Source of the DNA: an uncultured Paracoccaceae bacterium
Lineage (GTDB): Bacteria > Pseudomonadota > Alphaproteobacteria > Rhodobacterales > Rhodobacteraceae
Reading direction: 5' to 3'
DNA: 64,000 nucleotides
NCBI GenBank assembly: GCA_947492825.1
Contig: CANLNT010000001.1
Location: forward strand, 496,001-560,000
This document shows, one piece after another, positions 4,195 to 55,761 of this stretch (position 1 is its first letter; each line of letters begins with the position of its first letter). Made by a program: the position numbers and the translations under genes. The notes under the pieces are model-generated. The model was not told where the DNA came from, searched no databases, and saw only the letters and a list, made by a program, of their open reading frames with translations.

Positions 4195-5361
4195 CTAGCA
4201 GATCTTGAAGGCGGCGATTACGTCCCTGTCGGGTTCAACCCCAAGACCCGGCCCCGTTGGAATGCTGACCCGGCCGCCATTGCGGGCCACCTGGCCCTGG
4301 ATATCAAGGCTGACGGTCAGCAGGTCGTCGCGGAAACTGTTGTGGGTGGTGTCAAACTCCAGCATCGGCTCCCACGGGTGCAGGCCTCCGGGCATGGGCG
4401 GCATCGCGGCCAGCAAATGCAGGTTGGTCGCCACCGCAATGGCAGAGCCCCAGACGTGGTTGATGACCGGTGTGAAATGCGCATGGCAAAGCGCCAGAAC
4501 CCGCTGGTATTCGGTGATGCCGCCCAAGGCACAAACCTCGGGCTGGGCGATGTCGAGACCGCGATTTTCAAGGATGTTGCGCCAGCCCCAGCGGCCAAAT
4601 TCGGCCTCTCCGCCCGAGATGTTGGTTTTCAGTCCGGCGCGCAATTCGCGATAGCCGTCAAGGTCTTCGGGGGCGACGGGTTCTTCGAACCAATAGGCGT
4701 CCATCTCGTCCAGCGCGCGGCCCACGTAAAAGGCATCTGATGTGGTGTAGCAGTGGTTGGCATCGACCATAAAGCGGCCCTTGCCCGCGACCCCCTTGGC
4801 GACGGCGGCACACAGCTGCACATCCGCCCGCGGGCCAAGACCGGTTTTCATCTTGGTGGCCTGAAAGCCCATATCAAGAATCGCGGCAGCCTCGTCGGTA
4901 AAGCGGGCCACATGGTCGGCCACACTTTCGCGTTTGAGCATCATGCCATAGCCGTAAACCGGGACAGAGCTGCGATGCGCGCCGCCCAGCAGGTTGTAAA
5001 TGGGTTGGCCCATGACCTTGCCCGCGATGTCCCACAGTGCAATGTCGACGCCCGACAACGATTGCATCGGCATGCCCTTTTGCCCGTGGTCGCGCATCAG
5101 GTTGTAGACTTTGTGCCAAATCACGTCGCGGTCCATTGGGTCCATGCCAAGGATCATTGGTGCGATGACGCCCTCCACGATGCCTTTGTTGGCGACAGCA
5201 ATGGGGCCGGGGCCAAAGCATTCGCCCCAGCCGGTGATGCCTTCGTCTGTCGAGATTTCGACCAAATGGGCGGTGCGGCGGGCGTAGTATTGTTGCGAAT
5301 ATCCCAGCTCTTCGGGCAAGTCGTATTGCAGGACATGGCTTTGGACGGCAGTGATTTTCAT
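4195..5361 (-). CDS. Mandelate racemase/muconate lactonizing enzyme family protein (enolase superfamily)
   Basis: A 388-residue enolase-superfamily enzyme. The N-terminal capping domain is followed by the barrel, with the KxK base (K170, K172), metal ligands D200 in MVDAN, E226 in WFEEP and E252, and a probable acid H302 in INHVWGSA. Such enzymes dehydrate or epimerise acid sugars through an enediolate. It is the last gene of a minus-strand run and its ATG overlaps the stop of the Gfo/Idh/MocA gene by four bases. With the cluster context, an aldonate or uronate dehydratase or a cycloisomerase is likely, but the exact substrate is not readable. Confidence 0.88.
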   Translation of the reverse strand: MKITAVQSHVLQYDLPEELGYSQQYYARRTAHLVEISTDEGITGWGECFGPGPIAVANKGIVEGVIAPMILGMDPMDRDVIWHKVYNLMRDHGQKGMPMQSLSGVDIALWDIAGKVMGQPIYNLLGGAHRSSVPVYGYGMMLKRESVADHVARFTDEAAAILDMGFQATKMKTGLGPRADVQLCAAVAKGVAGKGRFMVDANHCYTTSDAFYVGRALDEMDAYWFEEPVAPEDLDGYRELRAGLKTNISGGEAEFGRWGWRNILENRGLDIAQPEVCALGGITEYQRVLALCHAHFTPVINHVWGSAIAVATNLHLLAAMPPMPGGLHPWEPMLEFDTTHNSFRDDLLTVSLDIQGQVARNGGRVSIPTGPGLGVEPDRDVIAAFKIC

Positions 5362-6377
5362 GGGGTTTCCTGTGCAGGCAAGGTGGCCTGAAGCACGTCC
5401 AGAACGGCAGCGAGGCTTGCGCGGCCCTCCTCGGCGCTGACCAGAGGCGGTGCACCATTAATGACGTCGATGAAGTGGCTGAACTGGCGCACAAAGGCGT
5501 CGGCGTGGTCCACCTGAAGGGTTTGTGCGTTGATCGGGTTCCACCAGCTGCGCGGGCCATCGTGCGACCAAAGCCGCAAGTCCGGAACGGACAGGGCGGC
5601 CTGCGTGCCGCCAATCGTATAGCAAGTGCCGGGATGATGCGGGTAGATCGGGTTTTCACCCGATGTCATTTCCCAGCTCCAAGGTGCGGCGATGGTGTCT
5701 GACAGCGAAAATGTGCCCAAGGCACCGTTTTCAAAGCGTAAAAGCACAGCGGCAGTGTCTTCGACAGATTGGCCGCGCCGGACGTTGGAGCGCATCGCCT
5801 GCACCTCGGCAATCTCGCCGCAGAAGTGGCGTAGCAGGTCCACATCGTGGATGAAGTTGATCATCGCAGGGCCGGCGCCGGGGCCTTTGCGCCAGGTCGC
5901 CTCAAAATAGTCGGCGGGCTTGTAGAGCCAGAATTGCCCTTGGACGGCGACGATCTGACCCAGTGTGCCTGCGGCAATTTCGGCCTTGGCGCGGGCGACA
6001 ATCGGGTTGTGTCGGCGGTGATGACCGACCAGCACCGGCACGCCTGCCGCCCGCGACGCTTGCACGATCCGGTCGGCGTTGTCGCGCGTGTCTGCCAGTG
6101 GCTTTTCGATCAGCACCGGCACGCCAGCGGCAATCGCGGCCAGCGCATGTGCTGCGTGCAAATGGTTCGGCGTGGCGATGACAATGCCGTCCGGGCGCTC
6201 TGCCGCGAGGTAGCTTTCGGGGTCGGCAAAATGCGGCACGCCTGCCTCGGCGGCCAGCGTTCGGGCCGCATCGGTGGGGTCAACGATGGCGGCCAGCCGT
6301 GCCTGCGCGGTGGCTTGTTCCACGTGGCGGCGACCGATCAGACCCGCGCCGAAAACGGTGATTTTGAGAGCGGCCAT
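5358..6377 (-). CDS. Gfo/Idh/MocA family NAD(P)-dependent oxidoreductase
   Basis: A 339-residue oxidoreductase. It has an N-terminal Rossmann fold with FGAGLIGRRHVE close to the start, the family EKPLA motif where the lysine acts in catalysis, and a C-terminal alpha/beta domain containing IHDVDLLRHF. The start at 6377 (MAALKITVFGAG) was chosen because it puts the glycine-rich loop near residue 8 and lies just two bases after the stop of the upstream gene. Members oxidise or reduce sugars and inositols such as myo-inositol. It is translationally linked to the downstream enolase-family gene by an ATGA overlap. Confidence 0.88.
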   Translation of the reverse strand: MAALKITVFGAGLIGRRHVEQATAQARLAAIVDPTDAARTLAAEAGVPHFADPESYLAAERPDGIVIATPNHLHAAHALAAIAAGVPVLIEKPLADTRDNADRIVQASRAAGVPVLVGHHRRHNPIVARAKAEIAAGTLGQIVAVQGQFWLYKPADYFEATWRKGPGAGPAMINFIHDVDLLRHFCGEIAEVQAMRSNVRRGQSVEDTAAVLLRFENGALGTFSLSDTIAAPWSWEMTSGENPIYPHHPGTCYTIGGTQAALSVPDLRLWSHDGPRSWWNPINAQTLQVDHADAFVRQFSHFIDVINGAPPLVSAEEGRASLAAVLDVLQATLPAQETP

Positions 6378-48376: not shown

Positions 48377-48450
48377 GCGGGCGTTGTGTAATGGTAAGAC
48401 CTCAGCCTTCCAAGCTGATGATACGGGTTCGATTCCCGTCGCCCGCTCCA
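48377..48450 (+). tRNA. tRNA-Gly (anticodon TCC)
   Basis: The acceptor stem GCGGGCG pairs with CGCCCGC, the anticodon loop is CTTCCAA with TCC, the T arm is ACGGGTTCGATTCCCGT, and the discriminator T is followed by an encoded CCA. The D stem (GTGT/AGAC) has one mismatch. A good copy of the glycine isoacceptor reading GGA and GGG. Confidence 0.97.
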
Positions 48451-53179: not shown

Positions 53180-53674
53180 TCAATCTGCCGTCTTCAGCGT
53201 CATGCGGATGTATTTTCCTGCGGATCGGTAATGGCTGGGGCCGGCCGCCTCGGCCCAACGGCCCGGTGTCCATGCATTGCGCGCTCCTTTCATCGGTCCG
53301 CCATAAAGGGCGGCATTGTCGTGCGTTTGCAGGAACGACATCAACCGGTCGTGGTTCTTTTGCAGCAGCGCCAGGGCCGCCGCCCAGTCAAGATCGGCCT
53401 GCCGCGCCCGCAGGTCAGCATTGTATCGCTTCAGGTCATTCCATTTGTATCCCGGGGCCGGGAAATGGACGGTCTTGCCCGCCTGACCGTCGGCATACCA
53501 GCCAAGAAACAAGGTGATCCAATGGGCACGATGGGCGACCACATCCTTGATCGAGGTGTCGTCGTCGCGCTTCATCTCAGAGGTGGCGGCGTCGATCCCG
53601 CCGATCAGGGCGCTGAGTTTCGCAAACTCCTTTTCGGTGATTTTCATCAGTCCTGACTTGTCTGTCGCAGGCAT
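53180..53674 (-). CDS. ClbS/DfsB family four-helix bundle protein (DUF1706)
   Basis: 164 residues, DinB-like fold. SIKDVVAHRAHWITLFLGWY has the family histidines, followed by FPAPGYKWNDLKRYNADL and the C-terminal SHYRSAGKYIRMT. ClbS protects against colibactin in E. coli; other members are unlinked to it and have no proven role. Divergent from the reverse transcriptase gene with a 344-base gap in which a structured region lies. Confidence 0.88.
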   Translation of the reverse strand: MPATDKSGLMKITEKEFAKLSALIGGIDAATSEMKRDDDTSIKDVVAHRAHWITLFLGWYADGQAGKTVHFPAPGYKWNDLKRYNADLRARQADLDWAAALALLQKNHDRLMSFLQTHDNAALYGGPMKGARNAWTPGRWAEAAGPSHYRSAGKYIRMTLKTAD

Positions 53675-53848
53675 GTGATTGGGTCCTCAAATCGCTGGTG
53701 CCTCTGACCTTAGACATTCTTGCAGCGCGGACATTGCGCTGGATCAAGCCTCTTGCGGATACCTTGCGGCCTGCGACGCTTGACCCCAGATCACGGGCGG
53801 GCCCAAAGGCGGTCTTGTTTCATCACCCTCTCCGGGGCATTCTGACAG
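53675..53848. other. Spacer upstream of the structured region
   Basis: 174 bases without a gene. CAGCGC and GCGCTG around 53726-53742 form a short hairpin. It presumably contains promoters for the DfsB-like gene on one side and for the reverse transcriptase region on the other. Confidence 0.35.
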
Positions 53849-54005
53849 GCGCAACGGCGGTTTCTGGATGCAGGGTGAACGCCATCCTGTGGGGCGGGGT
53901 ATCCCCGTCTGACGAACTGACTTGTGACTACACGGCCTCACCGTCGTTGGGTTGCACCCAAGGCCGGTGCGGCAGGACACGATTGGCAGGAACCGTGCGT
54001 TGCAC
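53849..54005 (+). ncRNA. Candidate retron msr-msd RNA upstream of the reverse transcriptase
   Basis: The left arm (53849-53866, GCGCAACGGCGGTTTCTG) pairs with the right arm (53987-54005, CAGGAACCGTGCGTTGCAC) over 17 base pairs, two of them G-U, with one mismatch and one bulged base, as a1/a2 repeats of retrons do. Between them I can read three further hairpins: GGATG/CATCC (53866-53887), CGGGG-TAT-CCCCG (53895-53907) and TTGGGT-TGC-ACCCAA (53947-53961), the last within CGGCC/GGCCG. The right arm ends 13 bases before the RT start codon. This is direct reading and not proof that the RNA is made or reverse-transcribed. Exact ends and branching G unknown. Confidence 0.45.
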
Positions 54006-54018
54006 CACCTGATGACAG

Positions 54019-55338
54019 ATGAACCATAAGGCGTTAGCAGGCATTCTGGCTGTCTCTCTGACCCGTGGTGCGTGGGATCGGGTGACTTTGCGGGACCGGC
54101 TGCAACAGCGGCTTCCCGCCGCGATACGCAACCTCGCCAAGCCCATCGCGGATGACCTGATCGCGGCCTTGCCCGGCCCCTATGCCCCGCAGCCCCGGCA
54201 TGTTGTTGCCGCACTTGTGGCGACGCCGGGCTTTCGCAAGGTGGCGACCCATTGTGCGAAACACGATGTCTGGCCCGCGCCCGATCTGTCGCCGCCGCAC
54301 ATGGCCCCAATCCCGGCCTTTACCGCCTGCGCGCTGCCTGCGCTGACCACACCGCAGGCGCTGGCCGATTGGCTGCTGGTTGATCCCGCGCAGCTTGATT
54401 ATCTGGCCGACCCCGAAGGTCGCCACGAACGGCACGGCGATATGGCCGTGAACCACTACCACGCGCGTGTCGTCCCCAAACGGCGGGGCGGCGCGCGGCT
54501 GATCGAGGCACCAAAGGCCCGGCTCAAGGCGATGCAACGCATGCTTTTGGACGGGCTTCTCAGCAGGGTTCCTGTCCATGATGCCAGTTTTGGCTTTGTC
54601 GCCGGTCGCTCCTGTCGGGATGCGGCACAGCGCCATGCAGGCGAAGACATGGTGATCTCTTTTGACCTGGCGGATTACTTTGCGCGGCTCGGCTGGGGCC
54701 GCGTCTTTGGGCTCTATCGTCGTCTGGGATATCCCGCGCCAGTTGCCCGTCTGCTGTCGGGCCTTTGCACCACACGCACTCCGCCGCGTGTGCGCGACCG
54801 GATGCCGCTTGCGGCGCGCGATGACCTGCGCGTCGCCCATCTGCCGCAGGGTGCGCCAACCTCACCGATGCTGGCCAACGTGCTGACCTTCGGGTTGGAC
54901 ATCCGGTTGGCAGGGCTCGCCCGGACGCTGGGTGCACGTTACACGCGGTATGCCGATGATCTGACCTTCTCAGGTGACACCACGATCCGCGCCCCAGTTC
55001 TGAATGCGGTGCCGGACATCGTGCGCGATGCGGGCTTTGCGCTGAACCCTGCCAAGACCCGCGCCATGCCAGCCCAGACCCGGCAAAGCGTGACTGGAAT
55101 CGTCGTCAATCAACATTGCAACGTCGCACGCCGGGACTTTGACCAGCTCAAGGCGGTAATCCACGCCTGCGGCAACCCTGCTGATCCCCGGCTACGCGAT
55201 CCCGCCTTTTGTGCAACGCTTGCGGGGCAGATCGGCTGGGTGCGATCGGTCAATCCGCAACGCGGCGCGAAACTCGACCAGCTCTTGAACCTTGCGCTGG
55301 AACGCCGCATTGAAGCGTCGGCCACAGTGAATATCTAG
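54019..55338 (+). CDS. Retron-type reverse transcriptase
   Basis: 439 residues. About 140 N-terminal residues precede the RT core: VVPKRRGGARLIEAPKARLK (RT1), motif A with D216 in ISFDLADYF, LPQGAPTSP at 275-283, the catalytic YADD at 311-314 and the retron-associated VTG at 358-360 followed by N364. The LTTPQALADWLLVDPAQLDY and YLADPEGR stretches before RT1 recall the myxobacterial (Mx162-type) group from memory. The NAxxH motif of many retron RTs was not found. No maturase or endonuclease domain is seen, so it is not a group II intron protein. The three downstream genes follow without a gap. Confidence 0.88.
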   Translation: MNHKALAGILAVSLTRGAWDRVTLRDRLQQRLPAAIRNLAKPIADDLIAALPGPYAPQPRHVVAALVATPGFRKVATHCAKHDVWPAPDLSPPHMAPIPAFTACALPALTTPQALADWLLVDPAQLDYLADPEGRHERHGDMAVNHYHARVVPKRRGGARLIEAPKARLKAMQRMLLDGLLSRVPVHDASFGFVAGRSCRDAAQRHAGEDMVISFDLADYFARLGWGRVFGLYRRLGYPAPVARLLSGLCTTRTPPRVRDRMPLAARDDLRVAHLPQGAPTSPMLANVLTFGLDIRLAGLARTLGARYTRYADDLTFSGDTTIRAPVLNAVPDIVRDAGFALNPAKTRAMPAQTRQSVTGIVVNQHCNVARRDFDQLKAVIHACGNPADPRLRDPAFCATLAGQIGWVRSVNPQRGAKLDQLLNLALERRIEASATVNI

Positions 55339-55356
55339 GGCTTGAAGGGAAACGAC

Positions 55357-55761
55357 ATGCACCCCCAGTCCCCCGTTGCCGTGATGGACAGCACCTGCGC
55401 GCTTTGCAGTTTCGGCGCGCGGATGATCCATCGTCTGGACCGTAGCCAAAGCATCCGTATTTGCCCGATCCAGACCGAGATGGGCCAGCAGCTACTGGCT
55501 GCCAACGGACTTGACCCAATTGACCCCGACAGTTGGCTTTTCATCGAGAACAGGACCGTCTGGCGCGACTTTGATGCGCTGATCCGCGTGGGCGAGCGTT
55601 CAGGCGGCTGGGGGCGCGCCTTGTCGCTGCTGCGGTTGATCCCGGCCCGGCCGCGCGGCTGGCTCTATGCCCGGATCGCGCGCAATCGCTATGCACTGTT
55701 CGGGCGCGGCGACATGTGCGCGATCCCTGATCCGGCCCTGCGCGCAAGGTTGATCGGATGA
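55357..55761 (+). CDS. DCC family (DUF393) thiol-disulfide oxidoreductase-like protein
   Basis: 134 residues. MDSTCALCSFGARMIHRLDR has the Cys-Ala-Leu-Cys pair of the DCC family close to the N-terminus, then DPDSWLFIENRTVWRDFDAL and a C-terminal YARIARNRYALFGRG, the typical ending. It is thought to be a thioredoxin-fold protein. The ATG at 55357 has GAAGGGAAA upstream; a TTG at 55342 is less likely. Nineteen bases separate it from the RT, and its stop overlaps the next gene (ATGA). Confidence 0.9.
   Translation: MHPQSPVAVMDSTCALCSFGARMIHRLDRSQSIRICPIQTEMGQQLLAANGLDPIDPDSWLFIENRTVWRDFDALIRVGERSGGWGRALSLLRLIPARPRGWLYARIARNRYALFGRGDMCAIPDPALRARLIG

Follow-up and report, generated by a model that had tools for sequence, protein, structure and literature searches.

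A probable retron core of an unclassified reverse transcriptase branch, with a covarying RNA and no recurrent neighbouring effector, in a Paracoccaceae bacterium

Positions 53849 to 55338 of the 64,000-nt stretch of DNA analysed here (the window) very probably hold a complete retron core, that is a structured RNA followed by a reverse transcriptase (RT), of an unclassified branch. The RNA structure is conserved, the RT belongs to the retron RTs, and both bear signs of selection. The RT branch has been modelled before in PADLOC, and retrons lacking a linked effector have been described before, according to PMC8867640, whose reference 38 is presumably Mestre 2020. New here are the covarying RNA of the branch, its spread, the probable position of its promoter and the absence of a recurrent neighbour. 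In a literature search no paper naming the branch in its title or at the start of its abstract was among the top-ranked matches, which excludes nothing. The features of the locus are as follows.

53815..53843, plus strand: candidate promoter, TTGTTT (53815-53820), 17 nt, CATTCT (53838-53843), separated from the RNA by 5 nt
53849..54005, plus strand: retron ncRNA (msr-msd), 157 nt
53851..53866, plus strand: arm a1 (5' closing arm), from sequence, fold and covariation
53867, plus strand: predicted priming (branch) guanosine, immediately 3' of a1
53870..53890, plus strand: msr hairpin A, 8 bp with a 5-nt loop, from the fold
53892..53910, plus strand: msr hairpin B, 8-bp stem with a 3-nt loop, core GGGG-NNN-CCCC
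53935..53973, plus strand: msd hairpin C, template of the predicted msDNA, from consensus pairing
53987..54003, plus strand: arm a2 (3' closing arm), from sequence, fold and covariation
54019..55338, plus strand: retron reverse transcriptase, 439 aa, with an N-terminal extension (about residues 1-100)
54019..54318, plus strand: N-terminal helical extension, helices at residues 3-14, 21-31, 34-50, 59-68 and 70-82 of the predicted structure

The first-pass annotation had described a 17-bp inverted repeat with one mismatch, one bulge and two G-U pairs, enclosing three hairpins, and had read the whole as the retron order a1, msr, msd, a2, RT. Pair by pair, sequence and single fold agree with this: G53849 pairs with C54005, 53851-53856 with 53998-54003, and 53857-53866 with 53987-53996 (including the two G-U pairs), C53850/A54004 being the mismatch and G53997 the bulge. 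An extra outer pair, G53848-C54006, appears in the single-sequence fold only. Hairpins A and B were found by folding and hairpin C by consensus pairing; in the consensus of 14 RNAs the latter has an outer stem of seven pairs and one mismatch and an inner stem of five pairs, while the single-sequence fold pairs this region somewhat differently. Folding of 53840-54018 gave -80.8 kcal/mol (z -2.87), and 2 of 200 shuffled sequences were equally stable. Judged by the window sequence alone, the stability of the fold thus exceeds chance only moderately. Two open reading frames overlap the RNA region (53698-54012 on the plus strand, 53744-54310 on the minus strand).

Comparison with homologues was carried out on 14 RNAs, i.e. 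those of the 15 near full-length family copies except L002, which is from the same species; they were aligned by sequence alone. When folded singly, each of the 14 forms the closing stem, with differing inner details. The alignment has 29 consensus pairs, and in 22 of them both sides have changed, including all eight consensus pairs of the closing helix and 10 of the 13 in msd helices 3 and 4. Compensatory changes of this kind had been named beforehand as a test of the retron reading. The covariation score was 0.554, compared with 0.189 for shuffled partners (none of 500 shuffles reached 0.554) and with at most 0.180 when partners were slid by 1-3 columns. The same four helices were recovered in 13 held-out RNAs, which had been found by the covariance model R1 outside its training set and were realigned by sequence; there, 25 of 36 pairs were changed on both sides. 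In a wide alignment of 71 rows, which was fitted to R1 and contains some partial and opposite-strand matches, both sides changed in 27 of the 29 pairs. With the homologues added, the sequence comparison argues decisively for an RNA structure beyond chance.

Model R1 was built from the 14 RNAs and searched against 92 sources. The window RNA, being one of the 14, scored 121.9 bits and was the single match in its own genome at E<=0.001. Upstream of the RT and on its strand, R1 matched 61 of 75 further loci at E<=1, and 59 of them at E<=0.01. Where the RNA match ends varies from 1 base within the RT match, which itself often begins within the protein, to 379 nt ahead of it. No match was obtained for 14 of the 75 loci, including two (L040, L058) at which hardly any DNA precedes the RT. 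At E<=1 this search also gave no match at any of L016-L030, the 15 other RT loci of the family. In a smaller search, a very weak match (14.5 bits, E 0.67) was found directly upstream of the RT_XIII-type RT of L017, and one of 14.6 bits (E 0.64) at L138; both count against a clean split of RNA families. Long RT frames of 595-662 codons are present at L016, L017 and L018, and those of L016 and L017 score best to RT_XIII. PADLOC is reported in PMC9252829 to include retron RNA models. Rfam, at gathering thresholds, recognised only a tRNA in the whole window (tRNA-Gly (tcc), 48377-48450, the sole tRNA found), and gave no match at E<=5 in 53700-54100; the RNA can therefore not be named from Rfam.

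The individual parts resemble those of known retron RNAs. The ends are complementary over 17 pairs (about 8-30 bases are expected), the RNA lies 5' of the RT on the same strand, and hairpins A and B are within the usual range of one to three msr hairpins with stems of about 7-10 bp and loops of 3-10 nt. Hairpin A varies in sequence and length and has no consensus pairs in the alignment of 14; of the two, only B does. In hairpin B, the two inner pairs of the GGGG-NNN-CCCC core are G-C in all 63 rows of the 71-row alignment that have letters there. Since two known retron RTs require a stem of 8 or 9 bp topped by a loop of three bases, as reported in PMC6868368, hairpin B is, by analogy, likely to be the recognition element of the RT. 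The msd hairpin is at the short end of the expected range (about 10-50 bp, usually with mismatches), its 13 consensus pairs forming two helices with an internal loop between them. A conserved G follows the inner end of a1, in the same column in 12 of the 14 RNAs and displaced by one column in L009 and L015. In the wide alignment the base after a1 is G in 44 of the 62 rows counted, and this G is thus less regular in distant relatives. Its context in the window is TGGAT, and in the relatives often CAAGC or CAAGA; none of TAGC, CAGC, GAGC, CAGA and ACGC, which PMC6868368 lists for known retrons and which are typical rather than defining, surrounds this G in the window.

The RT begins with an ATG at 54019, 13 nt past the end of the RNA at 54005, and carries LPQGAPTSP (54841-54867), YADD (54949-54960) and VTG (55090-55098, residues 358-360), all as first annotated. 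We take VTG to be the region Y motif. The two best PADLOC profiles were RT_other (PDLC02949, 442 bits) and RT_outgroup (PDLC03740, 423 bits), followed by RT_XIII with 312 bits; hence the best model was not one of the typed retron models (types I-XIII). Matches to the first two were full-length and included the N-terminal part (residues 4-424 to model positions 69-466 of 481, and 6-423 to 7-402 of 407, respectively). Neither model names an effector or a function. All 51 RTs of an alignment matched both at E<=1e-60 and likewise matched RT_XIII and RT_III-A with weaker best E-values, the ranking of models being known, among the 51, for the window RT only. In a structure search with the predicted RT, the first 14 of the best 50 rows listed were retron RTs; the rows mostly span residues 100-439. 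The aligned chain of Retron-Eco1 (Ec86) has 314 residues compared with 439 in the window RT, and its solved entry includes, by its title, an effector, whereas none was recognised at the window locus. The RT had been expected to group with retron RTs, as it does in the profile and structure searches.

That the locus might instead contain a group II intron or DRT-type RT behind a structured leader is extremely improbable. The RT core is common to such enzymes, and the group II intron model TIGR04416 does give 56 bits, but its cut-off is 300; the Drt2 model gives 36.9 bits with a cut-off of 390. Moreover, no intron RNA was seen by Rfam at E<=5, retron RTs lead the profile and structure searches, and the RNA has the covarying msr-msd layout.

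When aligned with three further genomes of the genus, the window DNA is similar from 53851 onwards, where a1 begins. Identity of the RNA is 99% within the species and 83-92% in three genomes of other species in the genus, in which the 300 nt preceding the RNA are at 50%. A DUF1706 gene (53180-53674, minus strand) lies upstream of the window retron and has no match in L169-L172; across the genus the upstream flank of the retron changes while the downstream flank stays. Promoter-like sites were scored with the pattern TTGnnn-N16..19-nAnnnT (6 or more of 12), which was devised after viewing four members of the genus that are included in the 27 loci examined. Such a site was present in 22 of the 27, ending 1-7 nt before the RNA in 21; mononucleotide shuffles of the 27 loci had on average 2.2 (at most 7 in 300 shuffles). 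Of 49 more distant loci, 23 had such a site, compared with an expected 3.1 and a maximum of 7; its position is less fixed there. The match of the window itself is weak (6 of 12), and a stricter simple scan of the window returned no promoter. On this comparison of sequences, a promoter just upstream of the RNA is probable. Points that stand against the reading as a retron core are the loci missed by R1, the atypical context of the priming G, the weak promoter of the window and the short msd stem.

A search of 394 genomes of the family with the RT gave matches at E<=1e-20 in 41, and a near full-length copy in 15 including the window genome (46-100% identity). From a collection of species genomes the best 80 of 562 relatives were taken; these came, by their record titles, from Alphaproteobacteria, Burkholderiales, Planctomycetes, Acidobacteria, Actinobacteria, Gemmatimonas and Myxococcota. 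A related RT that scores best to RT_other is located near merA on a Dietzia plasmid (L158, 2947-4212), and for this reason the branch is not strictly chromosomal; R1 finds no RNA on this plasmid. Of 196 viral relatives, the best 80 are 26-37% identical, and none of these 80 extends into the N-terminal part beyond residue 63. Two records among the relatives deserve mention. L046 is titled Exiguobacterium profundum (MAG), but is like Rhodobacteraceae in its RT, its RNA and its flanking DNA, and the genome is probably mislabelled. In L041, a Thalassococcus MAG, the RT frame from 1386 ends after 120 codons though similarity continues; its upstream RNA scores 119 bits with R1.

The N-terminal extension had been likened to that of myxobacterial retron RTs. 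PMC6868368 describes extended N-termini of unknown function in Mx162, Sa163, Mx65 and Ne144, and states that Mx162 and Sa163 are inherited vertically; an extended N-terminus is thus a feature shared with the window RT. The likeness holds for one group of myxobacterial loci (L121, which is the same locus as L071; L127; L128; and L129), which have an RT of this branch together with an R1 match at E<=0.003; they are not equated with Mx162 or Mx65. It fails for other N-extended myxobacterial RTs (L122, L123), which have longer frames, score best to RT_XIII and lack an R1 match. The Mx162 transcript is 241 nt (PMC6868368), whereas the window RNA is shorter with 157 nt. Of 39 genomes in the family to which the Pyxidicoccus genome G394 belongs, 20 have retron-like RTs at E<=1e-40, with up to four per genome.

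Retrons are described in PMC12548924 as three-part defence systems, and the same source mentions one retron without its typical effector and another with no obvious effector. To examine the neighbours, the gene on each side of the RT was chosen by a longest-frame rule and compared with known families. This rule errs at times in GC-rich DNA, as seen from the pick at L049, an opposite-strand frame over its ABC-F gene. The picks, 76 downstream and 67 upstream, included no recurrent effector, and no linked or fused effector of types I-XIII, which bears out the initial remark that the usual effector is missing; an effector located beyond the scanned neighbours or outside known families would have been missed. 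The most frequent Pfam families were the H-NS C-terminal domain (5), ABC and AAA ATPases (4, downstream) and Crp-type regulators (3, upstream). Four of the 76 downstream picks matched mad3, AriA, GajA and similar PADLOC models; three of these, and likewise three of the four downstream ATPases, are one common ABC-F gene (L117, L119, L120). Seven other downstream picks, checked for identity, yielded nothing. A common upstream gene is shared by nine loci (L043, L044, L046-L049, L117, L119, L120), eight of which also have the ABC-F gene downstream, and the window, L112, L031 and L032 have neighbours in common; local synteny accounts for these groups.

Directly downstream of the RT, 3 nt past its stop, is a gene for a DCC1-like thiol-disulfide oxidoreductase (55342-55761). 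It is very unlikely that this gene, cotranscribed with the RT, encodes the effector of the retron. Apart from the short gap, such a role could draw on the order RT-DCC1, which is kept in the five RT-bearing genomes of the genus (window, L112, L170-L172), with the same downstream genes. The sixth genome of the genus (G397), however, has DCC1 and the next gene but no RT at E<=1e-30; between its acyl-CoA synthetase gene and DCC1 (L169, about 5139-5877) lies an unrelated opposite-strand frame of up to 241 codons. Because G397 keeps DCC1 without the RT, the gene was set aside as effector. DCC1-like genes were, in addition, found in only two of the 76 downstream picks, all from this genus as far as identified (the pick at L032 skipped its own DCC1).

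The N-terminal extension was considered next to the neighbours as a place for effector function. It is present in all 51 aligned RTs, which had been picked for full length, and is poorly conserved in sequence; in the window RT it is confidently predicted to be helical. Within the species the dN/dS of the RT is 0.25, and between species 0.13-0.18, where dS exceeds 1 and is hence saturated; the extension is under constraint, though weaker than that on the RT part. These properties would suit a helical domain that is a built-in effector or recruits one, giving a single-protein retron system. This reading is nevertheless rather unlikely: Pfam matches nothing in the N-terminus of the window RT, and in ten RT N-termini it gave no match for eight and only matches below cut-off for L061 and L071; the 51-RT alignment has no strongly conserved polar motif in this part; and the extension may merely bind RNA.

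A housekeeping role as a domesticated, non-defence retron, with RT and msDNA kept as a chromosomal element, falls a little short of an even chance. The downstream genes shared by five of the six genomes of the genus, the nine loci with their common flanking genes and the best 80 viral matches, whose coverage of the N-terminal part has residue 63 as its limit, all agree with it. So does the window itself, in which no defence island was recognised when PADLOC was applied to 53 of the 66 frames selected (without the RT): six families were each matched by one protein, the best being mad3 (5.9e-34) and the rest 7e-07 or weaker, and the mad3 match probably reflects the likeness of ABC-type ATPases. 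Against domestication stand the patchy occurrence in the family, the copy of the branch on the Dietzia plasmid and the absence of a retron RT from G397. A complex that senses phage, whether self-contained or acting with a partner not linked to it, is slightly more likely than a housekeeping role, the two being close to even.

For the retron core, promoter use, priming and the existence and length of an msDNA can be sketched by analogy with known retrons. A promoter just upstream would start a transcript at or near a1, and a1 and a2 would pair. The RT would recognise the msr, probably via the conserved hairpin B with its 8 bp and 3-nt loop, prime on the 2'-OH of G53867 and, starting at about 53986 on the inner side of a2, copy leftward across hairpin C. 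The resulting single strand of DNA, attached to the msr, would measure roughly 60-75 nt. As no linked effector was recognised in the locus or the branch, the complex of RT and msDNA may work alone, perhaps through the N-terminal helical domain, or control a partner encoded elsewhere. Tentatively, we suggest a branch that extends across several phyla, has kept its position on the chromosome in two or more groups of Rhodobacteraceae and works without a linked effector, so that RNA, msDNA and an RT with its N-terminal helical domain would make up the complete device, either a one-protein defence or a domesticated non-defence component.

A retron-core branch that is under selection yet shows no linked effector is a test case for the use of msDNA without a neighbouring toxin. 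The covariance model, an RNA of 157 nt and an RT predicted with confidence make it accessible to tests in laboratory strains; its compact templates could join those used for DNA synthesis in cells.
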